Positions 2,069 through 45,472 of a stretch of DNA of 48,454 nucleotides are shown here, in pieces. Location: positions 1 to 48,454 of IMG/VR virus record IMGVR_UViG_3300006753_000011; one strand, 5' to 3'. Each line of letters starts with the position of its first letter. Within the stretch, counting starts at the first letter, position 1. Below the pieces are notes generated by a model that saw only the letters and a program-made list of their open reading frames with translations, was not told where the DNA came from and did no database searches. The stretch comes from a virus. A program made the position numbers and the translations under genes.

Positions 2069-3048
2069 CAGCAAACCTCCCCTGGATCGTCGGTTTCTGG
2101 TTCATAGATATCAAAAACCTTTTTGCGCTCTTCTTCTTCCAAAATTTTACAATTTTTGAGCTTCTTGTCAATAAAAACGCCTTTTTTCGTCATATCAACG
2201 TCTAAATCACATATAATCTTTTCATTAATTTCGTCATCAGCCAATAAATCGAAATAATAAGCAACATTTCCCTGCGTTAGAGGTGGCTGAGAGATATTAA
2301 TAAAGTCAAATTCTTTATCAAAAGGTTGATTCTTGATAAATTCCAGCGGTCTGAGTGTTTCTGTAGTGTTGTTGCCTGCATCATCTTTATCTTGAACAAT
2401 ATCAAATACTTCAATATCAAAATTCTTCTTTTGAAAAGGAGCGTTTTCTTCATTTAGTTTAATAATAAAATATGTATCTTCTTCTCTAGTGACAACTCCA
2501 ACAATCGCACCAGGATCTTCAGTTTCATAAAAATCAGTCACATCGGTTGGAATATATTCAATTTCCAGCTCTGATTCCAGTTGCGGTATTTTTAATGTAT
2601 TCTTTCCAGCATCTGCAGTTAAAGTTAAGGACGACGTCATCGATTCAAGCTTCCCTTTAAGAAAATGAACTGACATTGCAGGCGCATTTTCTTTATTAAT
2701 GTCTGAAGTGCCAATTGGTTGAGGAAGTGCATAGTTTTTAATTGCCGTCGGTTGCTGGCTCTTGCCGCCTGTTTTTTCTTGCCCGGAAAGAACCTTGTTG
2801 TAATTTTTCAAAAACTCTTTCTCCAAGCTAGAAAAAGATATTTGAGCTTTCATGGTTGGAGTTTCTTCAATTCTTGATTGAGAATTATTCTGTTCTTCTC
2901 TTAAATTTTGAAGTTCGATATTGTATAGAATATTATCATCGTGAAAAGAATAATAAACGGGCTTAAATTTACCTTTAGACAGCAAGTGCCGGCCAAATTG
3001 AGTTAGCTGGAGATCAATAACTTCCTCTTTTTTGTTAAAAAACTCCAT
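2068..3048 (-). CDS. Conserved phage structural-module protein (FFNKKEEV family), 326 aa
   Basis: The ATG shares one base with the stop of the 3095-aa gene (TAATG), and the stop shares one base with the next start. The N-terminus, EFFNKKEEVIDLQLTQFG followed by a Leu-rich stretch and KFKPVYYSFHDDNILY, resembles a family in large T4-like phages that sits beside baseplate or neck genes; its function is not established. The rest is acidic with alternating beta stretches (about residues 140-250) and ends in a charged, Glu-rich tail. There is no signal peptide or membrane segment. Context makes it a likely virion or assembly protein. Family resemblance is from memory of the N-terminal motif and should be treated as moderate. 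Confidence 0.85.
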   Translation of the reverse strand: MEFFNKKEEVIDLQLTQFGRHLLSKGKFKPVYYSFHDDNILYNIELQNLREEQNNSQSRIEETPTMKAQISFSSLEKEFLKNYNKVLSGQEKTGGKSQQPTAIKNYALPQPIGTSDINKENAPAMSVHFLKGKLESMTSSLTLTADAGKNTLKIPQLESELEIEYIPTDVTDFYETEDPGAIVGVVTREEDTYFIIKLNEENAPFQKKNFDIEVFDIVQDKDDAGNNTTETLRPLEFIKNQPFDKEFDFINISQPPLTQGNVAYYFDLLADDEINEKIICDLDVDMTKKGVFIDKKLKNCKILEEEERKKVFDIYEPETDDPGEVC

Positions 3049-12000: not shown

Positions 12001-12335
12001 AATGTAAAAGTGTAAAATCTATTTCTGTCAACAAATGTAAGCTTATCTCCAACAATCGAGCGAACCGGAGGACAAGCATCAACATCTTGAGTTGTGTTCG
12101 CTGAATTTATAGTTATAAGAACCGATCCTGCGGCTGCAGATGAATAAATCGGATCCCTCGTCAAAGTATTCATACCAGAATAATCCGACACAGGATATAC
12201 TGAGTTTGTGCCGTCATTGTATTGCGGATCCGCATGGCTTCTAGCATCAGCACCCACAACTCGTACGCTTACTTGAGTTCTTGAGGTAGTTCTGCCGAAG
12301 GTAATACCGCTTGATGTTGTTTCTGTTTTAGACAT
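3048..12335 (-). CDS. Giant virion protein, 3095 aa, with repeated helix-beta modules
   Basis: A single open frame of 3095 codons starts at an ATG preceded by AAGGGAAG. It has no signal peptide. Residues about 90-750 are Ala/Gly/Thr-rich and contain at least five related modules, each a short Ala-rich helix (such as IAAAI or LITAM) followed by beta strands. They centre near residues 195, 385, 490, 600 and 730, and a sixth lies near 2110-2160. An acidic Gly/Asp linker (about 792-835) separates this from a Tyr/Pro/His/Trp-rich body of about 2100 residues that I do not recognise. The C-terminus (about 2990-3095) is helical and basic. It follows the LamG/MAM giant after a 100-base gap and is coupled to the 326-aa gene. 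A peripheral baseplate or host-contact role is inferred. The length far exceeds any T4 baseplate protein. Confidence 0.9.
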   Translation of the reverse strand: MSKTETTSSGITFGRTTSRTQVSVRVVGADARSHADPQYNDGTNSVYPVSDYSGMNTLTRDPIYSSAAAGSVLITINSANTTQDVDACPPVRSIVGDKLTFVDRNRFYTFTFGGAGATDVAATAKFTPTASRARGEIAFEGAVANGGTVELRDADGNAVVYVFDTSVDTVDGSKNGSGQVIVGIASNARTPPLTAAAADAADFLLAVNATTGNTGNSLTLNITAESEGTLAGDPLTGTDAASRGNIIKLTQDNPGIAGNAAIKLTNTGDYVHATYFIGGRGLSPGYIHGATLTFKDVLGTRYSATCSAGTAAAASFEFSAPAVKASTVTFESTNGTIVAYEAVGDCDDIPTGESKRIDLSSTSSVQTIYYQQGPTAAQSALNLITAMSIGHGAEILTSVSDAVVALTQRVGGTNGNTTISCSTNFTNSIVNGGSYTTNTVGALADGTNLTYTQSTATKIGVSGITTTSHLAKAIKESLNEAAQYGVSSSSRSTAAGALLDIETITGDNEYVDVTMKTAGQKGNIPINGTLITDGHVRLGKTCGKIVINSIAGMSTDDAFVISDVAASPTAFDATSFTGFGGEANKEATALAIAAAITANSVVNPFLTAQASGHEIIICAKTSADVGSPCTSQGCDEPVIAIGWIPETDDCGADPCSDKPLGMVIIQDKGNKKDSGIDDQVLDDIGESGFDEGANVLDVTEAGDVGAAGTTEAVAEILADAITDKANESFIVKILPEPTKIKGGMPVSEVILQVTSTSEGDLVGGGFEDNIYVEPIYAEPTYVDGDPTFDFEITVGDDPDQPVVYETGGGNGDNGDDAPDSGENQGVDDTTKDDKAPFSQDKIYFRGGIDAPYSRRCNLLQAGSSGDYDNQNPSSVQNINPNAAGLYGFASGPLENDADYLNNLLLNRNGPYEHPMWKQIRNAEHKLARNHRANNIISVDPLGPAGTTKKSNEYFKWPGNTKSPPTMPGEDDYPHHIIIDYPSPKDILETDPSSFLPPVKLTLATPRFTCNGGVESNTRYYYEPPVVTRHSPFVYRVDDVRDLAADAETVTAVVRSTLFNGLHFFTNPEMNEIHGISDGATVDLEAGRHLRNKEVYGFFYASARELQESRNFLFREQIFPKEVNTFRTLTRQRLNYEEVRGYHENGMHRRLSHIRSFWRTNKCDRIRPYHLRPQIGNRSMLVAQTPYSSINHPWALPWHGVWNTYQKDGQYIEGWEMSHGLYSKPDLAAMQALNPLWLPVYGQPWFGSGIAVWYNSFKKEDAIIQFGDLDVPGESHPNIYGVGYAEITCSVITKAHLIHEPKIGPDFDSDGTPDFTDPTPTASVPAYEAKDWVGPNGAAADDAITKDYIINQKMDHQPYDFSLISMWPLDWPAHIATVERLPSEFTISSAGKSKFVWGEKEAHGQWTPYGGQYSRGHVCLGLAPNRLGTPYKCDGQTIDEDECNKESDPFAFGKCQDKWPTSVDWFLKGAPKPPTEPIDIIALKGLDHLTGQYRNDRDVESSPPSFRTGAAGELIYSTKPTITFYKRGPVEFDPPGYPAGNVPSKANMASDYGGILDGNDDATELLPGRFVYHWTTNRHHVMHADKVWLTDTQLGYQTSTASFQFLRHAWPYFQPLWRLDELSERAPMHNTYLEFVSDITPMSRDYSILPEFRLSLNQEEYDEVLREASEKDVPVYVLNSRKRLIRNLYKPVKHVANFLNLEGVRTKYKQEGPELNQVGEVNINVISQSAADVELPSSEQVYHYIPAGDVVETNYNQDPVVESWRTDPVSVNFYERHGHTEAGENFAKLLEQDDKAFIADKETVPSTVRLSFRAIKKLLPYKDFYPVNRTITLGAQLADVYTSSISHDPDVYERLKYTSSFTPHAEILENYPKLTTIAAAATQSFIEPLFAPGIMYNSIKSGIAVSYPLYHKPPRYYGNPNIVSDFGPYAHDTRGGTSTGRFLSSSADGASWDVSGDATVCEAAGNCGTWPHSHDPKKTISMGYGSMMGVASAMPTFLMSKHKYQMPFEALYNLDVLEGVYSNLANKLSDGNIYMVDDFFDNDRGHNVQGSLASDPHAWTTATGSATLVATDCSAGDCGVNNEKFIVYLSAWPAYAKFSFTAKASPAVPTISPNEVVIQYAWNDDEAVRATNIAAAINTHATGTAGMNPTSGKGSYFVDYWPNTGPGRSNQILTASVSGAVVTIHSAHSLSLEQQRLIQISASSGISNLEGAFKWYFGTVGLADQQSREYPTHRNTSEHAFRPHFSPTGEMAGFSHPGSYNIERRIYESSINNFLAETINFFIQKTTDGLGKYFDLRMPIAVSKPAHPTIKVERGTTYYMTVNLYMGESHVMCEGPRFADVPYIRDFASASMRGAFFGPPMEVVHRSFSDGGPSSSMTNPLSSISGATTNPGYGIYQGCGDNDFGSTCDNGLIDNITDPAYHHVTPPYFYGPSSIVMKYEATESEINIVDLVAKIRDQSLYFEEYITGLTGSDVAGYSSLRFPSSSLCPKIPTPESVSTGSVARMKIESSFDIFGGAGGHGMSTAPGVVPQLIPVQSLPEFRDSEPQTHVWAMMPKWVCPVLDFGLPGTIVRNVKNYRDFGYAITEAGMYGEHEKIYDKKIKGTVPYYDFLSGRSMWLGYGVDPYSREDLEYMKTHFTNMEKIYGLVNKDSADVDLAVLEKAGLTFAITDPTQDRASLEKKGIYFQISEAFPENYSPEISDATAFATDLDSAAAKSGYVTTRSEVFSEGVTGSLVDLLGFKDYASPMPIGKIAAKKVISEAIVAIPYFEEPWYVDMDFASPVSMKSQRRTIAGTLQEAIIPGKYFLKIDPILFENALSVLLVDHLTTPGSEENERCKKTWVDFKHALGHVEKMDLGRMIKRLIGIGTTSGDPGRVGYMLPPEFDFINNSAVSPFQMVLAPFQHTLDRVDLMHIWQNLMPDVSLRATKVKSDVILQPGVQVLSGWSPDLLGSGWAPPGSPAAAAGTDIHGPARQAFVDSNVGQFLNTTAINLVLQGKAFNGYISKNRPKTSAEYFEKLRWMVFKVKQRAAQDYGKYRERQIDVALRNQGVNRAAAGSAYLHQVDSLSTKELYGANWPYDYFSLLEKAKIDIEYEVIK

Positions 12336-12435: not shown

Positions 12436-15400
12436 TTAGCTTCCCACTTCGGTGCCTTGCTCGATCCCCAGATATGGTATCGCGCGGCCCGTTCCTGACT
12501 TTACGATGGCCTCGATGTCGCCATATGTAGGACTATTCGGATCTAATTGCTCAAAAATGCTCAGATCAAGTTCTGCAATTGCCTTAATCCACGCAACCTG
12601 ATCATTTGTTCGCGGGATAGTGTGGCTAACATATGCATTATCATATTGAGAGCCATGTGCAATGCCGCCGCCACTGGTTGAGAGAGAGTCTAGGGTTTGA
12701 TCTACATTTTTGCCATACACCAATCTGTCTCCGCGGTTTCTGTGTCTCTTGTGTGCTGAGGCTCGGTGAACTTTATCGCTAGAATTACTAGCTGATCCTG
12801 ACGTTATGCTATAATCTTCTTTATGAATTGTTCCTGTGGGGGACTCTTCAGCTGCAGCCAGCGATCCATCAGCGGAGCTTCCGAAAGTAGTACCTAGTGT
12901 TGTTGTTTCATATACTCTAGACGTAGCATCTTTACCTCCATAAAATCCATTAACAACCAGCGCGGATGACGATACTGCACAAATAATTGGCTGATTGCCA
13001 ACTGAGCCTGGTATGCCCTGCATCAAATCTATATAACCTAATACAGAGTTTATCTCCGAGAGAATGGTCCAATAATAATCTCGTTTATCCAAATATTCAT
13101 CATAATATCCCTGAGTTGCCGGGGCTTGGAGGCTGCCCACCAAAATCAAGTTGGTGTTGCCAAAAGCAACCAGTATTGCTTGTTCCAGGCGCCCGAGAGT
13201 ATCTACAAAATCATCGCCAAGCTCAACAAGATAGGGGAAGCTAGCATAATCATCGTTCGCATCATGCACTGCTGATGAAAAGTTAAAAGTTGCTTTATTT
13301 CCGCCGGCATCAAACATAGTTAAGTGGGGGCCCTCAGCTATAGCCTCCTCTCGAGTTGCTACAGAAGGAAGCTTATTCCAGTCTTTGATCCAGATTCTCC
13401 CGTGAGCGGTCGACCCGACTTGGTCAAATGCGACGCCTGGTGTTGCTGAGGAGGTGTTAGAATAATCAGCAAACTGAGAATGTGCGCTAACACCAAACTT
13501 CCCAGAATGTGCCGCCAACATTGAATGACAATGCTTGCGCAGATGGTAATTTCTCCACGGAAGTGCATTGTGCACAGCAAAAACCTCATGAGGCGTTGTA
13601 AAGAACCCTCGCGAAGAATCTAATATATCACCAGGGCTTGAAAAGCGATTAACAAACCGCGTTTTGTTCTTTTGGTGCTGAATAACATCAGAACCAACAA
13701 CAACACGGTATTTCCATGCCTCAAACTCAGTTCTATCTGGTAGTTTGTAATTTTTGCCACGTGCTGGTGAAAGAAGGCGCCCCTCGGTGCCAAAAGAAGA
13801 TGCGGCGAGGGTATATCCAGCACCTAAGCCGGTATCTCCAAGCGTTGTAAGATACATGCTAGCAATTTCTTGCTGATATGTTCCTGAGGGTTCCGTAGAG
13901 TTGTCACCAGCGTCCGAAGCTTCATATATATCGCCCTCTTTCTTAACAAAATAAGGATCATTCGCCTCGCGACCAAACGTATTAACATATTCATAGCGAT
14001 TATAATAATTGCCTGCTTTAGTCGCTGGTAAAACACTACCAAAATACTCACGTGGTCCAACTATGCTAGCTATCATGTGATTCTTTTTATCAGTAGAGTC
14101 AAGCTGGGCTGGTGTCAAAGAACCAATCTGAATATTTCTAATATTGACCGGTCGTTTTGCTAGCTCTTCTCTTGTGTGAACCGCATATGGGCGATTGTGG
14201 TCATCGTGGGTCGGGTGAAGCAGTCTAAGAGAGCCATATGGCCCGAGAGCAGGAAAAGGCGCAGTAAACCCGGTAGTAAGAATCTTTATATTATCTAAAG
14301 CGCAATCGGCGTTGTGTATGATGGGAGAGAAGTACACAAATCTAACAAAAAACTTGGTTTTTATGAGGCTGCTTATATCAATCTGCCCTCTCTTCCAATC
14401 AGCAGCCTGCGAAGTTTGTTGTTGGCCAGATAAGCTTGTCGCAGAAGACTGAGTGCCGTCGACATCCCATGTTGTCGTAAAATCAGTGCCTCCATCAGAA
14501 AAATCTGACTCATATGAATATTGAACCGATAAATTACCATGAGGCAAGCCATACATATGATATTTAAACTCAAGATACGCGGCGGATTCTCCAAGGTTTA
14601 CAAAATCTGCATTGCTCAACAAGTCAATCATCGGAGTGCGTAAACCAAATATTCTTCCCAAATCATCTAAAGTTGGTTGAGGCGCTGCAACTGCATAATA
14701 TGTTGAATTATCACCAGTTAGTGGGCCTGAATTGGCCGATGATGGGCCTTGCTGGTTTATTTTCCACCCAGATTCTGACGCTCCGGTAAATGTATGGTGA
14801 TTGGTTACGTTCGAAAACTGGTTATCGGATTCCGTGGTTGAGCCGGCGTTGATAACGACTTGTATATTATCTAAAGCACAATCAGCATTATGTATAATAG
14901 GAGAAAAGTACACAAATCTAACAAAAAACCTAGTTTTTGCAAGACTGTCCAAGTCAATGCGCGCTGTCTTCCAATCAGCATCCTGCGAAGTTTGTTGTTG
15001 GCCAGATAAGCTTACTGCAGAGGTGTTTGTGCCGCCATAGTCCCATACTGTTGTAAGATCAACACCCCCATCAGAAAAATCCGACTCATATGAATATTGA
15101 ACCGATAAATTGCCGTGTGGTAGGCCATACATGTGATATTTGAACTCTAAATATGCCGTATCCCCGCTGGAAGGTGTATAATCTGCATCCAATAAATCAA
15201 CCATTGGGGTGCGCAGACCAAATATTCTTCCTAAATCATCTAAATTTGATTGAGGCGCTGCAACTGCATAATATGCTGAGCCGTCGCCAGTTAGTGGGCC
15301 TGAATTAGCCGATGATGGGCCTTGCTGATTTATTTTCCATCCTGATTCTGATGCTCCAGCTAGTGTATGATGATTTGTTATATTAACAAATCGGTCTTCT

Positions 15401-18400
15401 TCAGATGGATCATCTCCTGTTGGCGCGGGGGGTTCGGAGGCGCCCAATGTGGGGCTGGACCCAGACATTTCTGGTGGCATATTATATTCACTTGAAAATG
15501 GAATATCAAGCACAAGAACTTTAGATATCGCGCCTATAGACTCCTCGAAATCTAAAACCATATCAAAAGCTTTGCTGTCGCTTAAAAGCTCGCCGGAACC
15601 TTCCATAACCAAAGCCCAACCTTCGGGGCGCGACATTCTGTTGTCAAAATTATCAATACCGGGACCGTCTCCTGCCGTAACACTAGGTTGATTCAAGTAG
15701 GCATGTCTATACTGGTTCCCTCCAACATGTTGGTTTGTAAAGGGGCCCTGCATTGGCACTTCAAACGTTGGTCGATAAGAATCGTGATGATAATTTGTAA
15801 ATTCTGTTGAACCTGAAAAATATAAATCATAATCAGCGTTGTAGTCTTTTGCTTTAAAGCTATCAAAAGAGCTTGAATACATATTGAACGGCAATAAACG
15901 AGTACTCTTATCGTCCGTGGGTTTATAATCGTCTTTTCCAGTACCATCTGCATTTGAGCTTGATAAATCATCAGCCGTCATCGTAAATGCTTTAATAATT
16001 CGCCTTTTTTTGTTTTTTGGCCAAGCATCCGGAATAATTTCGTCTATACAGTCTTTTGTCGGTAATTCATGGTCCCTATCAAGCCAAACAAAGTCATTAT
16101 CACTGCCGAATTTTATAACACCTTTATAAAAATCCGGCTTTTGCTGATCATCTGGGTTACTGCCACCCTTATACGACTTAATAATATCAGAATCCAAGTG
16201 AACTAGCTTGCTAAGCGCCCTGTCATAGTAATATGATGCACTATATTGTGTTTTTGGCGAGGATCCATAAGACAAAGCTAGCGTATCGTTACCTGAAAGC
16301 TCGGTAATTATAGTTTTTAAGATTATATCTTTATTACTATCAACAGAAGCATCACCAGAAGTCAAAACACCGCTTCTTTCTGCTCGATTTTTCCACCAAA
16401 AACAGTTTGTGTTCTCAGCATGCCCCGTTCCATTGGTGAAGTTGGTAAAATCTAAACCTGTGTCACCATCTGGCTCTGTGAAGCTTTTATTTCCATCGGA
16501 TCCGGCAGTACCTTGTGTCACAGTAATATTGTTTCCATTGGCCGCGGCGGTGAAGCCGATGGCTGTACCAGCACTAATTCGGGCAATGATTTGATCCCGA
16601 ACGCCTGCTGCTGTGAGGTCAACGAGGTCGCCAAACCAAATAGAAGTAGTTGTTCCAGGAATATAAGCACCGGTGTTACTCGCAATATTTCCGCCCATAG
16701 AAATGTTATATGTCGTTGTAACGCCAGCAGCATCTGTAATCGTGAAATCTTTAGTGTCTACCAGTTGAGCTTCTGCGCAAGTTATGATTGTTCCTTCAGC
16801 GGCGGTACCGACGGGCGCATGGCCATATTTCCAGTTGTATAGAAGCTCATTAATGCCTTTAAACTGCTCAAATGGCTCTGGCTTGTCCATTTCAATGGTT
16901 GGAAACTTGTGAAAATACTTATTTCTCTCCAAAATATGGCTTTCAACCATGTTTCTTAAGAATTCAACCTTGTTTGCGGACGCAGGAATCAATTGAAAGA
17001 TGAAAAAGGTCACCGCATCGTCAATCCACTTAAAATATTCAACAAACTTGTCTAAATCGGGCTCATTTTCGACACCTTCAAAGAAAATGCTTCTCAATTT
17101 CTCTAATTGCTTGTAAGATGGTCTATATCTATTAACTGGATCACCAACAAGGTTGTTAAAACCAACAATTGTACCAAACATGTTAACCATCTTGTCGGAT
17201 ATCACCTGATACATGCTCTTTTCAACCGATATTAGGTGTTGTACGTATGTTGTATCTCGCGTGAAAACAATATCATCCTGTTGATTGAGGATTTTAACCA
17301 TGTCATCGCTGTTGGCGATCTCAGGCAGTCTTTGTTTCGCTGTTGGCACGAACTCTAAATCAACAGCTTCAGATGTGCTGACAACAAAATGATCTCCCCG
17401 GGCAGGGTATAGATACGTATTAATATCACTCATAACTCCATAGCGTTTATTTGTGCGATCATCTACCGACCCCGATGATATATCGTCAACAGCAAACTGA
17501 CCATTCGCATCAGATCCAGTTACGTTGGTAAAATCCCAGTGAAGAAGCAATGTTTCTATCTCTGGGATTCGTACTTGCCACAAAGTTTGGGCGCCTGCTG
17601 TGCCTGCGTCCAAGTCTCCCTTAGATCCGGCGCCGAATAATGTATTTTTATATGGTTGAAGGCGCCCGAAGCTGGCCGCATTACGAGCATGAGCCCTAAT
17701 AACTTCATCTTCTAGATAATCATACCACATTCTAACTGATGAAATTTTAACATCAGATGGTGTTATAAGATCGCCATTAAAGCTTGTTCTGTGGGCGCCG
17801 GCAAAAACTCTTTTCGCACTCTCAAAAAACTTTATAGCTGCAGCTTTGGTTAAGCCGTTGGCGGCAGTCAGGGTAAATTCATTTTGCAACGTATCAGAGA
17901 TATAATTTACACCATATAGTTCAATTGTATAATCCACGATTGTTGGTGATAAAATTTTATCAGCCAAAGGATGAATTACTGGTTTAATTCTTACAGCAAG
18001 GTTCCACTTTTCATTATCATACACACCCTTAAAAGACGAAGTGGTTATAAGCTCTTCAATATCTGAACCGCCTACTAGCTTAAATTTAACACTCCTATTG
18101 TCATCATCTGATTTTATAGCTTGTACTTGAAAATTAACACTGTCATCGACTGCAAAATTAAAATTTTGATTCATATTCTCTTCTGTGTCGCTAGTAATGA
18201 GATGCAACCCAAACAAAGAAACTGCGCTGTCAGGATAAGTCGATGAATTTAAATCATCTTTAATCGATCTTTTTGGAAAAATAACCTCTGCTTCCAGTGT
18301 TGCGGCAAGCGATCCGGGTTCTGCAGTGGCATCCATATTAAACGCAGGAATAAAAGAAAGAGAGTTGGAGTCACTTGAATCATAGTATTGATATACAGTG

Positions 18401-21153
18401 GCACTATAAGCGTTAGAATATCCTAACTCTATTTTCATTCTAGTCTCTGGATCATCAAAATCCGCATACTTTTTTCTTAGCGCCATGTGAGAAACATTGT
18501 CTTTAAACTCATATGTTTCATTTTTTGGATATACGTTAACTCTCACCAATTCTTCATCAACGCCAAAACACCTTAAAAGGTTTCTAATAGATTTTGCTGT
18601 GCCCTTAGACTTCTGAATATAAGTTAAGTTATTGTAAATGTTCTGATAAATTGTATTTTTAACTTCATAAAGCTTCTTCTCAAATAAAATCTTTTCATCT
18701 CTATCCAAAAATTTTGCCAAAGCATCAGCATCAGCGAAAAGCTCTGGAGCATCCGTTCCGCGGGTGGACAACAACCTATCTGCAAATGGCAATGGTTTTT
18801 CAAAGTTTACATCATAGGGGTAGTTTATGTCTTTTATCCTGGGTAAGCTCTGAATCTGGAGAAATAATTCATCAAAATAACTTGCCATAATCTGGGTTAG
18901 TTGTCTCAAGTGATTCGAGTGTGTTTCGTCGGCCTCCGAAATCCAAGCCGGAAGGGTGCGATATAAAGACGTCACATTTTGGTGATCGTGTACTGCACCA
19001 AGAATCTTCCTTGACTCTGCAAGGGCAACAACATCCGGATGAGAAGAATATAAAATAGGATCTTTATATTCTTTGGTTCCGGCGTCGGCCAAAACAATAG
19101 CGGAGCCTGTATTTCTCGATGGAGTCGCCCCAGATTCCCTATAATTTACAAAAACTCCATTAGAAATGCGACCTGAATAGTCTAATATGGTTTGATCTAC
19201 ACTGGCGCTTCCTAGTATACCTTCATTAAATTTATAATACACACCTAAATCAATCAAATAATCAGTATTATCATATTTTACGTTATCTGTGTTGGTGCCT
19301 GCGCCCACTTGATCTTTATAATATCTTCCTATTTGTTGCGCAGAACGCCTTGTTTTCCAATAACGGAACTCATCAAACGATGCAGAAACTATATTGCCCC
19401 AGCCGCGGCCGGCATAAAAACCAGCAGAAATATTTCCAACCGCAGAAGAGGCGCTTTTTTCCGTTGCAAGGGCTCCAATAGCACCCACAATTGCACCATC
19501 TACTGCTCCGAGACTAGTTGCACCAACTGCCTTCGTTGATTTGTGTTCTCCATCCAAATATAGCTCAAACTGACCATAGCTTTCGAAATTGGAGATTGTT
19601 GTGACACCAGATTCTGGGTTGGCATTATAAAGATTGCCTATATTTGATCCGGCGCTGTCTAGAATCGTTGTAACGTCACTTGCCGAGGCGCCGTCGCCCA
19701 TTTCCCACCAAGACACTAGCTTGCTGTTATCTGCAACATATACTGAGTGTTTTTTTGGATTAATATAAGTTCCAGAGTTATAAAGCTCTGTCACCTCTGC
19801 AGCAGATAACGCGTCAGACCAAACAGTCACTTCATCGATATAACCATCAAAAAGAAAAGCGATATCCTTGTTCGAGCCACCATCTCTTCTTGCTCCAACA
19901 AGGAGATCAAACCCAGGCTTCATTGTTGACCCGCACACTCCAGCATCTAATTGTGGCGCGCCATCAACATATAGCGTGTGAGTGGTGGTATTACTAACAA
20001 GAACACAATGATGCCAATTTCCATCATTAACAACAGAATCAGAAATAGAAACATTACTATTTCCGCCGACCGCTCCATATAATTTACCGGCGGTGGCGCC
20101 GGGGCCCCGGACATACATTCTGTATTGCGCGTCGGGGTCTCCATCAGAAAAATCAGAGCTGATTCCTATGATACTTCCGTGACTTGTGGTCTTTATCCAC
20201 GCAGAAAGTGTAAACGAATCATCATCAGGATCAAAATTTAAATTTGACGGCTGTCCAAAAGATATAAAATCATCAATACCATCAAATTTAACCGACTTGC
20301 CAGAAATCTTTTTCATGGTAAGCGCATGATGATGCCAGTTTCCATCAGCTAGCGTCGACAGTCCCGTATCGAAAGATGAAGAAATTGAAACTGAGCCTGA
20401 GTCATAAGCAATATAGATGTCTGTAGGCTCGGTTCCCTTTGCATATGCTCTTAAATTTCCATATGCACCACCACTTGATCCCGTGTTTGCAACATTAAAG
20501 AAATATTCAATTGCGCCGGCACGGCCGTCAGGTGCGGTAACCCAGCCATCTTTTTTGCACCAATATTCTACAGTAATACCCTTTACGGGGTCAAGCTCAA
20601 GATTATTTGTTCGCTGACTAGCTGTATGGTATATATTCGCTTTTGATGTGGAATTTTGTTTCTGGCCAGCGGATGCAGGGCTTTTAAAGTCTCCACTTGG
20701 GTCTGGGTGGGGGCCTCCCTTAATTAAAACATATTCTGGTGCACTACTACTATAAATGTAGTCTGTGGGGTCGTGGACTTCCGTTGTGGTATAAGATGAA
20801 GCAGTGGGGTTGATCGTGATATACCCATTTGTTCTTGGATAATCATTTTCATATACAAATAAGTCTATGTAGTTGCTATTATTTTCCCATTCAATTTTTT
20901 CAGCCAACGAACCATCGTAAGGATACGTTTTGTAAATCCTCTCTATGGCCTGGGAATAATATAGCTCTGCTGATCCAAAATTAGCAAAGTTTGATGCAGT
21001 CGCAAAATCGACATTAGGAAAAAATCTTTCGCGGCGAGTTACGTAAGCATCAACGAAGCGCGAAGACTCTAAATCTTCACGAACATCATCTTGTGATTTG
21101 TTCTTTAAAAATTTTAAAGAATGCCCTTTATCAAAAAAGTCTTTAATGCCCAT
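12436..21153 (-). CDS. Giant baseplate-associated protein, 2905 aa, with nested LamG and tandem MAM-like domains
   Basis: A single frame of 2905 codons starts at ATG 18 bases after the 664-aa gene. Residues 1-130 form a helical N-terminal region, perhaps for baseplate attachment. An outer LamG/concanavalin-like domain (about 185-615) has GNWHHHALTM and later ELYLDG plus FDEFRYWKT. It is interrupted at about 286-522 by a second complete LamG domain (SVKFDGIDDF, GNWHHCVLV, LYVDG, IDEVTVW). A helical region follows, including KGTAKSIRNLLRCFGV, a motif type seen in tail and baseplate proteins. A helix-beta module is inserted at about 1446-1577 between GHAPVG and TNCFWWKNRAERSG. Two MAM-like domains lie at about 1922-2100 and 2113-2293. 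The C-terminal 600 residues are unrecognised. LamG and MAM folds bind glycans or proteins, so a receptor-contact role is inferred. By position after gp6 it could replace T4 gp7, without demonstrated homology. Confidence 0.92.
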   Translation of the reverse strand: MGIKDFFDKGHSLKFLKNKSQDDVREDLESSRFVDAYVTRRERFFPNVDFATASNFANFGSAELYYSQAIERIYKTYPYDGSLAEKIEWENNSNYIDLFVYENDYPRTNGYITINPTASSYTTTEVHDPTDYIYSSSAPEYVLIKGGPHPDPSGDFKSPASAGQKQNSTSKANIYHTASQRTNNLELDPVKGITVEYWCKKDGWVTAPDGRAGAIEYFFNVANTGSSGGAYGNLRAYAKGTEPTDIYIAYDSGSVSISSSFDTGLSTLADGNWHHHALTMKKISGKSVKFDGIDDFISFGQPSNLNFDPDDDSFTLSAWIKTTSHGSIIGISSDFSDGDPDAQYRMYVRGPGATAGKLYGAVGGNSNVSISDSVVNDGNWHHCVLVSNTTTHTLYVDGAPQLDAGVCGSTMKPGFDLLVGARRDGGSNKDIAFLFDGYIDEVTVWSDALSAAEVTELYNSGTYINPKKHSVYVADNSKLVSWWEMGDGASASDVTTILDSAGSNIGNLYNANPESGVTTISNFESYGQFELYLDGEHKSTKAVGATSLGAVDGAIVGAIGALATEKSASSAVGNISAGFYAGRGWGNIVSASFDEFRYWKTRRSAQQIGRYYKDQVGAGTNTDNVKYDNTDYLIDLGVYYKFNEGILGSASVDQTILDYSGRISNGVFVNYRESGATPSRNTGSAIVLADAGTKEYKDPILYSSHPDVVALAESRKILGAVHDHQNVTSLYRTLPAWISEADETHSNHLRQLTQIMASYFDELFLQIQSLPRIKDINYPYDVNFEKPLPFADRLLSTRGTDAPELFADADALAKFLDRDEKILFEKKLYEVKNTIYQNIYNNLTYIQKSKGTAKSIRNLLRCFGVDEELVRVNVYPKNETYEFKDNVSHMALRKKYADFDDPETRMKIELGYSNAYSATVYQYYDSSDSNSLSFIPAFNMDATAEPGSLAATLEAEVIFPKRSIKDDLNSSTYPDSAVSLFGLHLITSDTEENMNQNFNFAVDDSVNFQVQAIKSDDDNRSVKFKLVGGSDIEELITTSSFKGVYDNEKWNLAVRIKPVIHPLADKILSPTIVDYTIELYGVNYISDTLQNEFTLTAANGLTKAAAIKFFESAKRVFAGAHRTSFNGDLITPSDVKISSVRMWYDYLEDEVIRAHARNAASFGRLQPYKNTLFGAGSKGDLDAGTAGAQTLWQVRIPEIETLLLHWDFTNVTGSDANGQFAVDDISSGSVDDRTNKRYGVMSDINTYLYPARGDHFVVSTSEAVDLEFVPTAKQRLPEIANSDDMVKILNQQDDIVFTRDTTYVQHLISVEKSMYQVISDKMVNMFGTIVGFNNLVGDPVNRYRPSYKQLEKLRSIFFEGVENEPDLDKFVEYFKWIDDAVTFFIFQLIPASANKVEFLRNMVESHILERNKYFHKFPTIEMDKPEPFEQFKGINELLYNWKYGHAPVGTAAEGTIITCAEAQLVDTKDFTITDAAGVTTTYNISMGGNIASNTGAYIPGTTTSIWFGDLVDLTAAGVRDQIIARISAGTAIGFTAAANGNNITVTQGTAGSDGNKSFTEPDGDTGLDFTNFTNGTGHAENTNCFWWKNRAERSGVLTSGDASVDSNKDIILKTIITELSGNDTLALSYGSSPKTQYSASYYYDRALSKLVHLDSDIIKSYKGGSNPDDQQKPDFYKGVIKFGSDNDFVWLDRDHELPTKDCIDEIIPDAWPKNKKRRIIKAFTMTADDLSSSNADGTGKDDYKPTDDKSTRLLPFNMYSSSFDSFKAKDYNADYDLYFSGSTEFTNYHHDSYRPTFEVPMQGPFTNQHVGGNQYRHAYLNQPSVTAGDGPGIDNFDNRMSRPEGWALVMEGSGELLSDSKAFDMVLDFEESIGAISKVLVLDIPFSSEYNMPPEMSGSSPTLGASEPPAPTGDDPSEEDRFVNITNHHTLAGASESGWKINQQGPSSANSGPLTGDGSAYYAVAAPQSNLDDLGRIFGLRTPMVDLLDADYTPSSGDTAYLEFKYHMYGLPHGNLSVQYSYESDFSDGGVDLTTVWDYGGTNTSAVSLSGQQQTSQDADWKTARIDLDSLAKTRFFVRFVYFSPIIHNADCALDNIQVVINAGSTTESDNQFSNVTNHHTFTGASESGWKINQQGPSSANSGPLTGDNSTYYAVAAPQPTLDDLGRIFGLRTPMIDLLSNADFVNLGESAAYLEFKYHMYGLPHGNLSVQYSYESDFSDGGTDFTTTWDVDGTQSSATSLSGQQQTSQAADWKRGQIDISSLIKTKFFVRFVYFSPIIHNADCALDNIKILTTGFTAPFPALGPYGSLRLLHPTHDDHNRPYAVHTREELAKRPVNIRNIQIGSLTPAQLDSTDKKNHMIASIVGPREYFGSVLPATKAGNYYNRYEYVNTFGREANDPYFVKKEGDIYEASDAGDNSTEPSGTYQQEIASMYLTTLGDTGLGAGYTLAASSFGTEGRLLSPARGKNYKLPDRTEFEAWKYRVVVGSDVIQHQKNKTRFVNRFSSPGDILDSSRGFFTTPHEVFAVHNALPWRNYHLRKHCHSMLAAHSGKFGVSAHSQFADYSNTSSATPGVAFDQVGSTAHGRIWIKDWNKLPSVATREEAIAEGPHLTMFDAGGNKATFNFSSAVHDANDDYASFPYLVELGDDFVDTLGRLEQAILVAFGNTNLILVGSLQAPATQGYYDEYLDKRDYYWTILSEINSVLGYIDLMQGIPGSVGNQPIICAVSSSALVVNGFYGGKDATSRVYETTTLGTTFGSSADGSLAAAEESPTGTIHKEDYSITSGSASNSSDKVHRASAHKRHRNRGDRLVYGKNVDQTLDSLSTSGGGIAHGSQYDNAYVSHTIPRTNDQVAWIKAIAELDLSIFEQLDPNSPTYGDIEAIVKSGTGRAIPYLGIEQGTEVGS
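14275..15390 (-). repeat. Tandem in-gene duplication of a MAM-like domain (two copies of about 180 aa)
   Basis: Copy 1 (about 15390-14851) and copy 2 (about 14817-14275) are spaced 573-576 bases apart, with a one-residue length difference near the DLL motif. Both contain TNHHT, SGWKINQQGPSSANSGPLTG, GRIFGLRTPM, LEFKYHMYGLPHG, SLSGQQQTSQ and FVRFVYFSPIIHNADCALDN. The YHMYG...G pattern is typical of MAM/jelly-roll domains. Protein identity is around 80% by eye. Where the DNA differs (for example 14301-14340 against 14877-14916), changes are mostly at third codon positions. Confidence 0.93.
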
Positions 21154-21171: not shown

Positions 21172-23166
21172 TTAATCTTCAACTCTAAATTTGAATATTT
21201 CCTCCTGATCCTTCCAGGCGCCGGCGATATAATAAGATAACTGAATTCCGTACATATAGCCAGCCTCCAAAAGAGACATATCAAAATCAAAATAGCTTCC
21301 AGAAGTATCATATGAAAGATAGGTGTGATATGGTGCGCTGCCAGTACCGTGCGAGAACAAGACCTTGCCATCTACTGTTCTAAGAATAGAATAAGAAGCA
21401 CTAACAATGGTTTCTCCCTCAATATTCTTATTTGCAACTGTGTAAACTGTTGGGGTAAAGTTTCTTGCTCGAGCAAAGACGCGCATGCGCTCAGATGTGT
21501 TTTTTCGGCTATATGAATCTTTCAAATTAGTAATTGTGGTTACATATTGAGATTGTGTGTTTGTTGTCTGCGAAGTTCTTGTGCGCACAGTTATCGATCC
21601 CGTGTGATAATCACCTCCATCGTCGGCCTGGGCCCAGATATCGTGCACGGTAGTGTAAGAGCCTGTGTTGTCAAAAACAACTTGCGCTTGATATATGCCT
21701 GTTTCAACCATCGAAGCGCTAGTATCTGTAACTAACGCGGAACCTGATGGTGCGGAACCTGAGCTGGCGTAGATAGAACACTTTACAGTCTCCCCAACAG
21801 ATGTAAGCTGTCCATCAACATAATTGTATAGATATAACGATTGTGTATTAGCGGTGCTGCATAAAGAACTACTAGCGTAGAATTTATTCCTATCATCCGT
21901 TTTTCTATCTTCCCATCGAGCCTCAATCACTGGGCGCCTAAAGAAAAACTCAGAACTTCTTGCAAAAAACCTCTTTGTGTACATAGACTTAGTAATGCCA
22001 CCAGTATTTTGTACCTGCGAACCTGAGTCACCTATTGAACTAGAGAAATAAGCCTCTTGACTGCCTGTAACCATAATGCCAAAACCGTAATCATCTAAAC
22101 CAACGCCCGCGGTAAAAGTGGATGCAGCCGTAACGTTAGCTAGCCCACTAGTAATTCCAGTATTACCGGCGCGGGTTGCCGTGGCTTGTGTTAGTGTCAT
22201 TCCCTGGGCGCTGCCGTCTGCGGCCCCGGGGAGCCCTGAGACTGTTATTGTGTCTGTGCCAGAGCCATGGCCGGCATCGCTTTCTATGGCTGCTTTCAGT
22301 TGAACTAAAATTTGATATTGATTATCTGGGTTTTCTATATTAACACCGACTGCGCATGCAGATCTGCCAGCTATTGACGTGTACGTGGCGCCCCCAAGGG
22401 TATCGCTGTTTGATAAAGCTGTTCCTGACGCTTTTCCACCAGCAACTCCAGTATTTGATATCACATATTCTACAATTCTACCAGCAGAATCTTCAATGAC
22501 AAATTTTTGTCCAGCAGCAAGGTCGTCCATAACGCCAGCAACAGCAATTGTGCCCTGAGCTACGTTAATTGATGCGGTGGCCGCTGTTGTGGAGGTGCTT
22601 ATCCACTCCTCAACCAAATCAGTGACGTCGACTTCTAAATCTTCTGATCCCGTAACAAAACTAGCCGTATACCAAGCTGCAGAATTTTGACTGCCAGAAA
22701 TATAATCTCCACCATCTCTTGTCCAAGCAACGCCCTTGGTTCTGTTGTCCCAGTTCGAGCCAGGGATTGCATCTTTGGTTTTATCACCATGGTTAACAAG
22801 ATCTAATCCTGTTCCTTCCTCCCAGGCTCTCGCAACTGGGAATATGCTCAATGTAAGGTTTTCAGGCAGCTGTTCGTCATGACGAGCATTAAAAAGCCTT
22901 AAATAAAACTTTAAACTGCTCGAACCAGAAGCTGGAATTGTTGTTGCTGTTCTATCTGCTTTGATTCCTGCCGTGCCAGTGACTGGAAACTTGATTAAAA
23001 CACGCGAAAGTTCTGAAGAGCTGGTTGAATACTGCCCATAAATGGAAAACACTTCAAGAATATCATTGGCGCCGGCATTGGAGCCTGTGCCTCGGGCCGA
23101 TAAAACAGTATCATATGCATTTGTTATGGTATTATCTGCTTCTGCGTAATATCTTTTAATAGCCAT
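21172..23166 (-). CDS. DNRLRE-like baseplate/virion structural protein, 664 aa, with inserted module
   Basis: The start overlaps the gp6 stop by one base (TAATG), so it is probably translationally coupled to gp6. Residues 1-191 look like a DNRLRE-type beta domain: repeated strands, RVLIKFPV, a LSIFPVARAWEEGTG stretch, and DVTDLVEEWI at the end. The canonical final strand, YGFGIMVTGSQE, comes only near residue 358. The roughly 160 residues between are an Ala/Gly/Thr-rich helix-beta module like those in the two adjacent giants. Residues 385-430 contain KRFFARSSEFFF and PVIEARWEDR, followed by Ig-like beta repeats to the C-terminus. Proteins with this N-terminus and position next to gp6 occur in large marine T4-like phages. 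A structural role at the baseplate is likely; the exact role is unknown. Confidence 0.88.
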   Translation of the reverse strand: MAIKRYYAEADNTITNAYDTVLSARGTGSNAGANDILEVFSIYGQYSTSSSELSRVLIKFPVTGTAGIKADRTATTIPASGSSSLKFYLRLFNARHDEQLPENLTLSIFPVARAWEEGTGLDLVNHGDKTKDAIPGSNWDNRTKGVAWTRDGGDYISGSQNSAAWYTASFVTGSEDLEVDVTDLVEEWISTSTTAATASINVAQGTIAVAGVMDDLAAGQKFVIEDSAGRIVEYVISNTGVAGGKASGTALSNSDTLGGATYTSIAGRSACAVGVNIENPDNQYQILVQLKAAIESDAGHGSGTDTITVSGLPGAADGSAQGMTLTQATATRAGNTGITSGLANVTAASTFTAGVGLDDYGFGIMVTGSQEAYFSSSIGDSGSQVQNTGGITKSMYTKRFFARSSEFFFRRPVIEARWEDRKTDDRNKFYASSSLCSTANTQSLYLYNYVDGQLTSVGETVKCSIYASSGSAPSGSALVTDTSASMVETGIYQAQVVFDNTGSYTTVHDIWAQADDGGDYHTGSITVRTRTSQTTNTQSQYVTTITNLKDSYSRKNTSERMRVFARARNFTPTVYTVANKNIEGETIVSASYSILRTVDGKVLFSHGTGSAPYHTYLSYDTSGSYFDFDMSLLEAGYMYGIQLSYYIAGAWKDQEEIFKFRVED

Positions 23167-24962
23167 TATCTTATAGTTCCTTTAATGTCCAAGTTGGGGT
23201 ATTTCAACTCATATATAACATCATTCGGAGCATATTGTATTCTTCCATCAGCAGAAAGATGCTCTCTAAAGTTTAAAGAGTAATCTGAATATCTAGCACC
23301 TGTTTTCGAAACAATCTCGACATCTACAACATCTACAATCTCATCTAAATTATTTAACACATCATAAATCTTTGAAATATATATTGGTTGTCCAATGTCT
23401 AGATTTTCGGCAAAGATGTCTTTAATTGTATTAATAGCTACATTTAAAGCCTCAAATTTATCTTGGTCTGTATTGACAACGGCTGAAAAACTAATACCAA
23501 AATTTGCTACCCTTGCATCAAGAATATCAATTGTATCATTAAGCATTTTATATTGTTGTAAGAAAACCTTCAAATTGTTTTTCAAAACCTGGCTTGATGT
23601 AATCAACTTACCATCATTGTCTTCGGAAGTAACATACAAATTCAAATTTCGTTTAAATGAATCATGATCTCGAATAATTCTAGCTCTTTTTACTTTGCCA
23701 AACTTTGGCTCCATCCTATAAACTAACGATCTATAATCATCCTCTGTCACTGCTCTGTTTTGAGTTGCAAATAAGTCATTGATTCTTTGTTTAAGCTCAT
23801 TAATCGTTGGCAACCCCACATCACCGGTGATTGGTTGCTCGTTTGTGCACTCCAGGCTATCTCTAACAAGGCGAATTTTATTTAAATTAACGGCATTATC
23901 AGGAAATATAAATATAGGATCACCAGGATTGACAACAGTGTTCGTTGCCGTATTAGCAGTATCAGATGTATTTGAGCGATATACAATTCTCAAGATAGTG
24001 TTTGCGGGTGCGACGCCAAACTTATCATTTTCTAGAAGCTTTGAAGGATCAAACGATTCATCAGTCACATAGTCTTTGCCGTGCATCTTTAACACCACAT
24101 TTGACGGATGAGTTAAATTATCTATCTTTAATGACTCTTCAGATCCATAGCCAAATTTTAAAAACGTTTTATCGTTTCTGACAAAAGTAACAAACCGCCT
24201 TGGCACAGATGTTGCAACAAGTACACTTGGAACATAATCCCTCGTAGTATTGTCTTTATTTACTACAGTTCTATAAATCGTATCCTGTGATAAAAAAGGT
24301 ACTTCAAAATATTCATGCCCCTCGGTGTCTGTAACCGATACAATCTCTGTAATATTTTCATCGGCAACGGCCACTGTTAAAAACCGTTTAAACTCTCCAA
24401 CAGTAGCTAGCTCATCCAAAGTCTCGCCAGAGATTACTCGACCATATGCCTTAACAATAAAGCCAGTTGCGACACCGGTATCCTGATCCTCTGTCGCAAC
24501 AACAACTTCATTATTACTATTTGCAAAATCGACATCATCAATTAGCACATACGTATCACCAGTATTGGTGGTAAATTTAGTATCTTTAACTAAAACTGGC
24601 AAATAATTTACATCTGGGCCAGTACCATTTGGTTCACTAGGCGCCAATATAAAAATCGACAACACGCCAGAAGAGCTAGCTCTAAGGCTTGGACTATATC
24701 CGACCTGTTCTCCTAGCCGCAAAACATTATCATATTCAACAGCAGTATCAATAAAAGATTCATTTGCTTGATAGTCTATATAAAAAGACAACATATCGCC
24801 CACATAAGCTACTGTGTCCAACATAAGGGAACCAAACGATGCTTCCGAGAAATCTCTAAATACGTTTGGATAATATCGCTTTGTATATTCAACTAAATTA
24901 TCTTTAATGCTGTTGAACTCTCTGTCTGTATATCTTATTAATTTTTTACTTTTTTTGCTCAT
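23166..24962 (-). CDS. 6: Baseplate wedge protein gp6 (Baseplate_J family), 598 aa
   Basis: In T4, gp6 forms the inner ring of the baseplate wedge, clamps gp25 and gp53, and transmits the sheath-contraction signal. The N-terminus matches the family: TDREFNSIKDNLVEYTKRYYP (split here as a 21-residue region at about 12-32), then FGSLMLDTVAYVGDMLSFY at 43-61 and QANESFIDTA at 65-74. The central part carries the beta-rich J-like fold, and EDDYRSLVYRMEPKFGKVKRA-like residues lie near 410-430. At 598 aa it is close to T4 gp6 (660 aa). The start shares one base with the gp25 stop (TAATG), with GAGGAAA upstream, and the stop overlaps the DNRLRE-like gene start. The gp25-gp6 order is conserved in contractile-tail phages. 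Confidence 0.93.
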   Translation of the reverse strand: MSKKSKKLIRYTDREFNSIKDNLVEYTKRYYPNVFRDFSEASFGSLMLDTVAYVGDMLSFYIDYQANESFIDTAVEYDNVLRLGEQVGYSPSLRASSSGVLSIFILAPSEPNGTGPDVNYLPVLVKDTKFTTNTGDTYVLIDDVDFANSNNEVVVATEDQDTGVATGFIVKAYGRVISGETLDELATVGEFKRFLTVAVADENITEIVSVTDTEGHEYFEVPFLSQDTIYRTVVNKDNTTRDYVPSVLVATSVPRRFVTFVRNDKTFLKFGYGSEESLKIDNLTHPSNVVLKMHGKDYVTDESFDPSKLLENDKFGVAPANTILRIVYRSNTSDTANTATNTVVNPGDPIFIFPDNAVNLNKIRLVRDSLECTNEQPITGDVGLPTINELKQRINDLFATQNRAVTEDDYRSLVYRMEPKFGKVKRARIIRDHDSFKRNLNLYVTSEDNDGKLITSSQVLKNNLKVFLQQYKMLNDTIDILDARVANFGISFSAVVNTDQDKFEALNVAINTIKDIFAENLDIGQPIYISKIYDVLNNLDEIVDVVDVEIVSKTGARYSDYSLNFREHLSADGRIQYAPNDVIYELKYPNLDIKGTIR

Positions 24963-25360
24963 TAAGCTATTTCCTCGCTATTAATAACGATAGTTGATTC
25001 AAAGTTCATATTTGGTACTGAAAAAATAATTTTCACTGATAATATGTGACGATCTATCAAATCAGTACCAGCATTGTCATCAGAGTCAAAAAACATATTT
25101 TCAATTTCTATATATGGCATATATCTAGCAACCTGCGCATATAATCTTTTTTCAATTTGATGAGGAACGTGATCACGATTCTCAAATAAGAATCTGCGGA
25201 TCCCAACACCAAAATCTGGGTTCATTATCCGTTCGCCAGGATTTGTTAAAACTAAATTTTTGAAATTTTGTTTAATTTCATCATGATAATTCGTTATCAG
25301 GGAATAAACTCCGTGTCTCGAATCGGTAGAAAGTGGCAATAATGGACCTATTCCCTGCAT
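24962..25360 (-). CDS. 25: Baseplate wedge protein gp25 (GPW/gp25 family), 132 aa
   Basis: gp25 nucleates sheath assembly and bridges the wedge to the central hub in T4-like tails and related contractile systems. The 132-aa length equals that of T4 gp25. The family signature is visible at residues 38-60: LTNPGERIMNPDFGVGIRRF followed by LFE. A helix (KRLYAQVARYMPYIEIE) follows, then the C-terminal beta strands (SVKIIFSV, ESTIVINSEE). A good ribosome site, AAGGAT, lies six bases before the ATG. It starts a tightly coupled gp25-gp6-DNRLRE gene run, and the short gap before it holds a 14-base palindrome. Confidence 0.95.
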   Translation of the reverse strand: MQGIGPLLPLSTDSRHGVYSLITNYHDEIKQNFKNLVLTNPGERIMNPDFGVGIRRFLFENRDHVPHQIEKRLYAQVARYMPYIEIENMFFDSDDNAGTDLIDRHILSVKIIFSVPNMNFESTIVINSEEIA

Positions 25361-25383: not shown

Positions 25384-25397
25384 ATAGTAGCTACTAT
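25384..25397 (-). promoter_or_regulatory. 14-base perfect palindrome at the stop codon before gp25
   Basis: ATAGTAGCTACTAT is self-complementary and includes the TAG stop of the 3954-aa gene. It lies in the 33-base gap before gp25. As RNA it could not form a stable hairpin without a loop, and no U-run follows, so it is not a classical terminator. A dyad-binding site or RNA-processing signal is possible, or it may be chance. Confidence 0.35.
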
Positions 25398-28300
25398 AAT
25401 TCCTCTGCGCACTTCTCTTGCCAACTTTTCGCAACACCTTCAGCTTCTTCGTCTTTTAGAACGTCATATGCGTCACTCATCAACAATACTAAGTATATCA
25501 TACCAGGGATTGTGCTTGGAGGGCCAACGTAGAATGGTGGCGGGACAATGCCGCCCCAATACGGGGTCATGGATGGTACTAGCATGGCCCATGCCGAGGG
25601 CAGCAAAAAGTTAGATCCAAATATATTTTCCATTACCTTTTTGGTGCAAGCCAGCTGGCCGCCTTTTTTATCGAATTCTTCATCGCTCACACCCGTCGGA
25701 TCACCTGGCCTAGGGCACGGGGCTTTGAACTTTAAGTCTGCTGCATCCTTTTCGTCCTGCAGCTCCTGAATTTGCGCTAGAAGGCCCGCATACTGGCCAA
25801 CCATCTCCATAAGCCCATCAGCTGTTTCGGTAAACTCACCCCATGTTGTTGTCCATTTTGGATCATTATCGCCGGCGCTGTCGGGGGCGGGCTTGAAGGT
25901 CTCATCCTTGACACCATCAGGCGCTTCAGGGTCGTCTGGAAGCGGCCGATACTCTACTTTCCAATCTTTTATATCTCCTTTCAACTCCATTGTGATATTA
26001 CCGTCTTCGTTGAGGTCCGTGCCTGGAATCGTGGATCCATCGCCGCCTTCCGGATCTACCAACTTTGGGCCGGCCTTCTGGGCAAATCCAGTTTGCATGC
26101 CCTCGATGGCCGGCTTCATCATTGCAATGGTCATTTCAACCTTCGCAGCTGTCGAATTGGCAGCATCAATTGCTCCTTGCAGCCCCATCGCATATGCGTT
26201 ATAAGTTGTTTCTATGGTGACAATAACCACCTGATAAACGGCTTTTGCTAAATCAATATAGAATTTAGCAATTGCAATTGCAGGATCTGTTAATTCAACA
26301 AAGCCTTTGAGAACCAAAAGCATCGCTTTATAAATAATTTCTATAATTTGCTTTGTTAAGCTTTTATCTGCACTGTTTGGGCTTGTACTTTGCACGCCGG
26401 CTAGCAGGTCATCGCGCAGGTGGTTTTTTACTGCTGACGGTATAAACGTGTAATCATCAGCACCATTTATAAGCCCCTCGAGCAAGCCCAAGATTAATAG
26501 TTTTGTTTCTTCTAGAAGTTTTGTTGGGTCACCAATAAGTTCCAATATGCAATCACTAGAATACAAAAAGCCCAAAGCCATGTATCTTTTAACTGGGATT
26601 AAATGATCAAAAACCAACTTAAATTCTGGGGAATCTTGAAGTTCAGCTAACATGCCTTTTGCGAGGTGTTTATAGTAAAACCCTCCCGGATTTTGTACAA
26701 TGGAGCGATACATGGCTTCGGGGCCAACAACATCTTCACTAACATATGCAAACTCGTTAACCATCTCATTCATGTTCATTTTTTCAGCTTCTATGTCAAA
26801 CATTCCAAGGCCATGTTTAGCATTTATAATATCTATAGATTTGCCGTCTAGGTCTTCTACAACAGGCTTGTCATAAGAAAATTCATTAAAATCATAATAA
26901 CTGTTGCCAACTTTAATTTGTCCATCAACATATTCAACTTCTCTCTCAATTTCCACAATTGGAATATGTAATTCATTAAATAACTGTGGCCACCAAGAAC
27001 CTTTCCGCTGTTCTCCAACATCCACAGTATCCTCATCGTACGACCGTGACAACTCATCTCCCCGCACGTTAATAAAGGGCCCTCCGGTATCAACAACAGA
27101 ATCATCTTTATTATATTTATGATCAGCCAAAACAATAGTTCTTTGAGACAGCCCCGCCTTAGAGTTATTCAAGCCTCTTTTGCCCATTATTGTTCCAATC
27201 GTTTCGGTGGCCTTCCACTCAAGGTGCCCCGGGGTGGCCGGGCCGGACATGTTAAGAGCCCTGCTTTGTACAACGGTGCCAAAATTACTAACATATGTCA
27301 TTCGAAGCCCCATCTTAACGCTCTTAAAAAATGGCTCAAACCCAAAACGTTCATAAAGAAGCCTAATTTTAAAATTGTCTGGTTGGTTAATCCATGGAAA
27401 GAATTTATAATTAATAAACCATGAAAAAACCTCCAGAGGAACAACACCATATATATGTGATTGAAACGGGTTAGAAACAATAACGTCGGCGCGCCGATGG
27501 TTTCTTAATATCGGGTCCGCGCCAAGAATATCACCCGCGTTGACCACATTTCCTTGACTCTCATCATCACAAATTTCGTAAGGTTCATAATCTAAATAAC
27601 GCAAATTAAGCGCGTCGCGGCCGGCCTTGGTCTGATCTTCAATTTTTACATAAGTTTGAAATACAAAATTTCCGGCTCGAGCATTAAGCCCATTTCCAAC
27701 CAAGTATTCGTGTTTATTTTCAAATTGACTTGGGTTTGCAAATAATTTATCTTGCAATATTCTCTGCACTCGATTTTTCTTGAAATAACTTTTCCCATAA
27801 TCCATCAAAGTCTTATAAGTATAATATTCACGATCTTTTAATTTATCACTGTTCGTTTCAATAGTAGGTTCATCTAAAAGCAATATAGGATCAGACGTAT
27901 AAGCTCCATGATAAGCTACAGGTACAGAGTGAAGAAAGTTTTTCTGTGAAATTCTAGATTCATTACCAGAAAAATCCTGCGTCGGAAATTGTATTCGCCA
28001 TCTTTTTTCAAAAGGATCATCTGTGTGCTTCGCCAAGTCACCACCATATAAATATTCTTCGGCTTCAGGATCTACGGAGTCTTGAAAATCAGTAGCCATC
28101 ACATCATACATCGAGGAGATGTTTTCATCGGACAACCCTAGCGCTTCGAGTATATCTCTATACTTCCAGGGCTCTTTGGCAATCTCATAGTACGTAATAT
28201 TATTCATCTCTTCTACACAATTGTCGTAAGCGTCGCCTTGTTTGTCTTTACAAATCTCGCTTATTAAAAAGACGCTTTGAAGACCCACCACATTAGCGTC

Positions 28301-42433: not shown

Positions 42434-42733
42434 TTAATCCTCATTAATTAAATCATATATATCCGATTTTTCCATTGACGATAAGCCTGTAGCAGCGGAA
42501 GCTTCTTTTCTACTTAATAAAGAAGCGAGCTTAACAAGTTGCTCATTAGATCTTTGTAGAGTTTCAAGATATTTTGCTGCGACGACGCCACAGCTTTGAT
42601 GTCTCTCTTCTGAAGCTTTCATGTAGCCAGTAAGGTGGACTAACAAATCTGTTGCCAAGGCTCGATCATTCTTAATGTTGTCAATCGCTAACTCTACAAA
42701 ATCTCGAGAATCTATATGCTTCCTTTTTCCCAT
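42434..42733 (-). CDS. Small conserved helical protein next to gp55, 99 aa
   Basis: The ATG lies inside the end of the gp55 gene (22-base overlap), and the stop is three bases before the hub gene GTG. The protein is almost wholly helical, with a basic start (GKRKHIDSRDF) and a core, VAAKYLETLQRSNEQLVKLASLL, around residues 50-73. That core resembles small conserved proteins encoded beside gp55 or hub genes in marine T4-like phages. No function is established. It might assist late transcription or packaging, but nothing in the sequence shows this. Confidence 0.85.
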   Translation of the reverse strand: MGKRKHIDSRDFVELAIDNIKNDRALATDLLVHLTGYMKASEERHQSCGVVAAKYLETLQRSNEQLVKLASLLSRKEASAATGLSSMEKSDIYDLINED

Positions 42734-45471: not shown

Positions 45472-45472
45472 A

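Follow-up and report, generated by a model that had tools for sequence, protein, structure and literature searches.

The window analyzed in this study, a stretch of 48,454 nt that represents a fragment of an uncultivated virus, probably a marine phage (IMG/VR record IMGVR_UViG_3300006753_000011), contains a 2905-aa open reading frame (12436..21153, minus strand) whose product carries one complete LamG domain inside another. The hairpin that receives the inner domain is empty in about 150 proteins and filled in eleven, where the cores are often unrelated to one another, and it therefore looks like a slot for exchangeable host-binding heads. Our favored interpretation, to which we assign a probability of roughly 0.6, is that the insert is an exchangeable surface-binding cassette docked in the hairpin of a baseplate LamG, its most likely ligand being a host-surface glycan or protein.

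A sequence-only reading of this DNA had proposed a LamG within a LamG, and the translation bears out the open frame and motifs that it described, as well as the order in which they occur. The first half of the outer LamG (residues 172–285; 20299..20640, minus strand; family profile 124 bits) stops after the WHH strand, at ...HHALTMKKISG in the family alignment, and the second half (residues 527–650; 19204..19575, minus strand; 153 bits) runs from GQFELYLDG to FDEFRYWKT. The break proposed at residue 285 was thus placed correctly, but the outer domain resumes at about residue 527, a few residues later than the 523 originally suggested. Between the halves lies a unit of 241 aa (residues 286–526; 19576..20298, minus strand) with two parts. 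Its core (residues 286–457; 19783..20298, minus strand) bears the ordered motifs KSVKFDG, GNWHHCVLV, LYVDG, and IDEVTVW, and its tail (residues 458–526; 19576..19782, minus strand; YNSG...LVSWWEMGDG...GNLYNA) resembles the unit end of phage LamG repeats, for which the module consensus is ...LYNSGxP...WRMGDG...GTMTNM. Pfam alone sees one strong LamG in the whole protein (residues 305–454), since the insert divides the outer domain. The sequence-only reading had suggested comparing profile searches with the insert removed and intact, and this comparison agrees with nesting: the outer halves joined (residues 160–285 plus 527–665) scored 38.9 bits against Laminin_G_3 (PF13385), for which the curated cut-off is 27.6 bits, whereas neither half matched any Pfam family separately. 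The insert by itself scored 81.9 bits, and uninterrupted relatives gave 36.8 and 41.7 bits, near the value for the joined halves. As judged from sequence, these results confirm that residues ~172–285 and ~527–650 make up one LamG and that residues ~286–526 constitute a second, complete LamG between its WHH and LYxDG strands.

Firmer evidence than fold prediction comes from relatives in which the hairpin is empty. An initial IMG/VR search returned 77 loci, and in the 62 distinct relatives of the first alignment the segment WHHYAFTxKTxGSxTxSNLYVDG runs unbroken where the window has 240 extra residues, the hairpin measuring 11–22 residues vs. 255 in the window. The family alignment places residues 286–526 in the hairpin that joins the WHH and LYLDG strands, as the sequence-only reading had held. 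The idea that the insert was unique to the window was dropped once searches with two further nested homologues (L080 and L121) as queries found more. The final set of 172 distinct IMG/VR homologues includes 148 that are continuous and therefore lack the unit, 13 that are incomplete, at contig ends or otherwise, and 12 that are nested, window included; L080, whose contig ends inside the insert, is counted in both of the latter classes. Nested genes are accordingly a minority. Eleven have the insert in the WHH/LYxDG hairpin (the window, L080, L310, L337, L346–L351, and L353), while L121 carries a LamG in the neighboring loop just before the WHH strand, its nearest relatives being continuous there. 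With the exception of L080, every nested gene retains the outer domain at both of its ends, and in L310, L337, L347–L351, and L353 the gene is complete to either side of the insert. One further sequence, L356, is a near copy of L348 with a broken frame. A scan of 333 LamG-matching ORFs for nesting elsewhere flagged only the 2905-aa protein, and its sensitivity was poor, as it missed L121. In one other relative (L047:2639-7635), the outer LamG is where the gene is broken: a first ORF stops past the hairpin, and ~4 kb with two paralogue-like ORFs (642 and 544 aa) precede the second part, which restarts at GNFSFDEFRYW. This split may be a real rearrangement or an assembly error.

It could be argued that the nesting is an artefact, either an assembly chimera or tandem LamGs misread as nested, given that LamG paralogues align to each other easily and do confuse alignments. 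We regard this as very improbable. The insert is also crossed by another IMG/VR contig (L002), which over 17,311 bases shows 2 mismatches to the window, so the nesting is not a chimera private to the window's assembly. Furthermore, there are eleven other nested homologues, the halves that match nothing separately pass the LamG cut-off when joined, and the same halves are already joined in 148 relatives.

Alignment confusion did affect structure prediction. A single MAFFT alignment of both LamGs was abandoned after many sequence mixes, as outer relatives or modules were drawn onto the wrong domain, and AlphaFold2 was therefore run twice with complementary alignments. With 65 outer sequences, pLDDT was 78–97 over residues ~180–289 and 78–96 over residues 520–559 and 590–599, which include the resuming strands; the inner part, having no aligned relatives in that run, was poor. 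With 52 module sequences, the inner unit (residues 290–509) was mostly at pLDDT 72–96 (mostly 80–96 in the core and 72–93 in the tail to residue ~509), and the outer part was poor. Two jelly-rolls, the outer one built from non-contiguous segments, had been expected by the sequence-only reading; confident strands were indeed predicted on either side of the insert and no series of three domains appeared, but outer and inner LamG were never both confident in one model. Strand pairing across residues 285 and 527 would follow from the continuous relatives, in which a short turn joins those two strands. The nearest solved folds to the inner-unit model are pentraxins, LG domains and other carbohydrate-binding or binding proteins. 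Because half of the outer model is of low confidence, searching the PDB for folds like it gave nothing informative.

When the inserts were compared with the proteins that carry them, the two gave different histories. Between the window and L310, identity rises from 38% across the N-terminal part and outer half 1 to 63% within the insert core, and is 40% for the tail of the insert and 50% for outer half 2; the window and L080 share 40% in the N-terminal part, 61% in the core and 22% in the tail. Conversely, L310 and L337 are 80% identical in the N-terminal part and 82% in outer half 2, with insert tails at 74% and cores at only 35%, which makes them a clean cassette-swap pair of near-equal host proteins and tails with differing cores. 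Host proteins that are distant thus carry related cores, and close ones carry unrelated cores, which indicates that the core has been exchanged rather than passed on by descent alone, and, at the level of sequence, its ancestry is independent of that of the host protein. In the tree of the N-terminal part, the window falls deep among continuous relatives, with L080 far off.

In a different account, the unit would have been inserted once, long ago, and then passed on vertically, with loss from most lineages and faster evolution of the insert in some pairs. In its favor, 10 of the 11 hairpin inserts examined at the junction have similar openings (KS/RS-[IV]-x-F-[DN]) and close just before the next outer strand, and the insert tails of L310 and L337 remain alike. 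Vertical descent, however, is contrary to insert cores that are 61–63% identical between the window and L080 or L310 where the host proteins are only 38–40% identical. Moreover, a clade joining the window with L080 was rejected (p-AU 0.00035), as was one joining the window, L080, L310, and L337 in the larger set (p-AU 0.0003). The 12 nested rows are scattered on the host-protein tree with at least 10 state changes (shuffled mean 11.4), and many exact losses would be required, although parsimony counts alone cannot tell gain from loss and the quick tree of the larger set has moderate supports. Taken together, we find a single ancient insertion improbable. Precise loss of the unit is nonetheless possible as well, for example in L313, which is continuous inside the clade of L080, L310, and L337. 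The GC and GC3 of the insert equal those of the rest of the gene, giving no compositional sign of recent import, and no direct repeat of at least 8 bases was found at its junctions. In a search for bacterial or archaeal donors, the best genome matches reached 34–37% identity, and no donor could be named.

The setting of the gene suggests where the protein works. The 2905-aa ORF sits among large virion genes, downstream of a gp6/J-like baseplate wedge gene (23166..24962, minus strand; PHROG baseplate wedge subunit, E 3e-19) and a gp25-like baseplate wedge gene (24962..25360, minus strand; PHROG baseplate wedge subunit, E 5e-15). These neighbors make a contractile-tail baseplate likely, and the product is likely a giant, peripheral baseplate or tail structural protein of a contractile-tailed phage. 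This placement rests on gene order, because the core of the protein (residues 690–1448) matched no solved structure or clearly named family. A search for similarity to wedge proteins of the T4 gp7 or P2 gpI type yielded no PDB match with a 30-sequence profile and weak PHROG matches.

Within such a baseplate, the inserts could be explained as follows. A LamG domain, a concanavalin-like jelly-roll near the N-terminus, is common to all relatives, and the turn of one edge hairpin, from the WHH to the LYxDG strand, tolerates a whole second LamG unit. We infer that recombination through conserved flanks, namely the outer halves and the insert tail, adds, removes and exchanges these units. The outer jelly-roll would then act as a rigid base that displays the inner one outward as an exchangeable head, and the most likely target of this head would be a surface glycan or protein of the host. 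The branched adhesin proposed by the sequence-only reading is, on the available sequences, plausible. A broader version of the favored interpretation holds that, across a large group of uncultivated phages, the WHH/LYxDG hairpin serves as a dedicated docking slot in which LamG cassettes of different ancestry are swapped by flank recombination so that host recognition is altered and the tail assembly parts are left untouched; to this we would give even odds.

Alternatively, the inner LamG may be passive decoration, such as a spacer or a weakly sticking surface for particles or mucus, that has no effect on host choice, with the hairpin being merely permissive. Most relatives do without it, and the host protein accretes modules in several places. 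Among 74 long homologues examined, 11 have extra LamG units elsewhere in the protein. A second insertion site (residues 1447–1580; 16414..16815, minus strand), recognized by homologue comparison, holds a ~130-aa non-LamG module between YGHAP and NTNCFWWK in the window. Most relatives lack this module; at the same joint, flanked by the same YGHAP and NxxCxWWK motifs, two homologues (L134 and L161) carry a LamG and another (L013) a short linker, the window's module being a third kind of filling. Against passive decoration, the core in L310 and L337 has been replaced while base and insert tail stayed, as would be expected for a binding head under selection. We consider passive decoration unlikely. 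Elsewhere in the window's protein, a MAM-type segment is duplicated in tandem (residues 1918–2297; ~14265–15402) with 78% protein and 84% DNA identity, and relatives align with one copy.

Exchangeable heads in the hairpin would have a parallel in the evolved Dits of siphophages, in which carbohydrate-binding modules in loops of the galectin domain bind the host (PMC7291167). In both cases a beta-sandwich module occupies beta-sandwich loops of a tail protein and is present in some relatives and absent from others. Unlike evolved Dits, host and guest here both match Laminin_G_3, and the giant protein, encoded beside gp6- and gp25-like genes, has no Dit match in Pfam or PHROGs; by analogy with Dits, the insert may bind the host. 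LamG domains in phage tails are already known (PMC7824862), and Synechococcus phages S-RSM4 and Sf-CH11 possess large virion proteins with a LamG related to the insert (34.5% over 81–103 aa), that of Sf-CH11 being annotated as a baseplate wedge subunit. The 2905-aa protein differs from these: a tblastn comparison with 50,697 annotated phage records, at a threshold of E 1e-5, gave no match to it and thus no cultured relative among those records. The LamG fold is also known to take loop segments in neurexin LNS domains, where they tune partner binding: the SS2 insert of LNS2 extends strand beta-9 and raises affinity about 6-fold (PMC6856630). Neurexin inserts, however, are 8–30 residues long and arise by alternative splicing, whereas here a whole domain is inserted; equivalence of the hairpin with SS2 is not implied.

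Members of PF13385, a family of the concanavalin A-like lectin superfamily whose cut-off both the inner unit and the rejoined outer domain pass, normally stand alone or in tandem, whereas here one interrupts another. The sequence-only reading called insertion of the same fold uncommon, which is too strong. A survey of 48,551 domain insertions (ECOD), which share the A1-B-A2 architecture seen here, states that 65.8% join different homology groups, from which it follows that about one third fall within one group (PMC13114784); its abstract and the passages searched make no mention of LamG or concanavalin-like nesting. Tail proteins with plug-in modules have been described before and, going by those parts of the survey, insertion into a member of the same homology group is no rarity overall. 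What is unusual, and goes beyond the sequence-only reading, is that one hairpin is used repeatedly and that its cassette is exchanged; we found no description of a LamG slot with exchangeable LamG units in a baseplate protein in the open-licence literature searched. Plug-in binding modules, a concept built on the evolved Dits of siphophages that infect Gram-positive bacteria, are thereby extended to another class of tail protein, the giant baseplate proteins found in uncultivated phages. If the interpretation is true, the docking slot would provide a modular route to changed host recognition without altering the tail assembly parts, and the natural series of empty slots, filled slots and swapped cores with flanks kept would allow a test of whether a change of cassette brings a change of host range. 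From the standpoint of protein evolution, the nesting is a naturally recurring example in which a single hairpin of a fold admits a second, entire domain of that fold, with possible uses in domain-insertion design and as a structure-prediction benchmark in which two homologous domains confuse alignments.

The remainder of the window contains other large ORFs near this gene (25394–37258, 3954 aa; 3048–12335, 3095 aa; 38597–42430, 1277 aa), none with a Pfam match; the 3954- and 1277-aa ORFs, which were the two covered by the PHROG scan, had no match there either. The segment at 42712–43410 weakly matches a late sigma transcription factor (phrog_234, E 9e-5), and two glycosyltransferase-like genes (PHROG 2170) lie side by side near the virion genes at 44209–46726.
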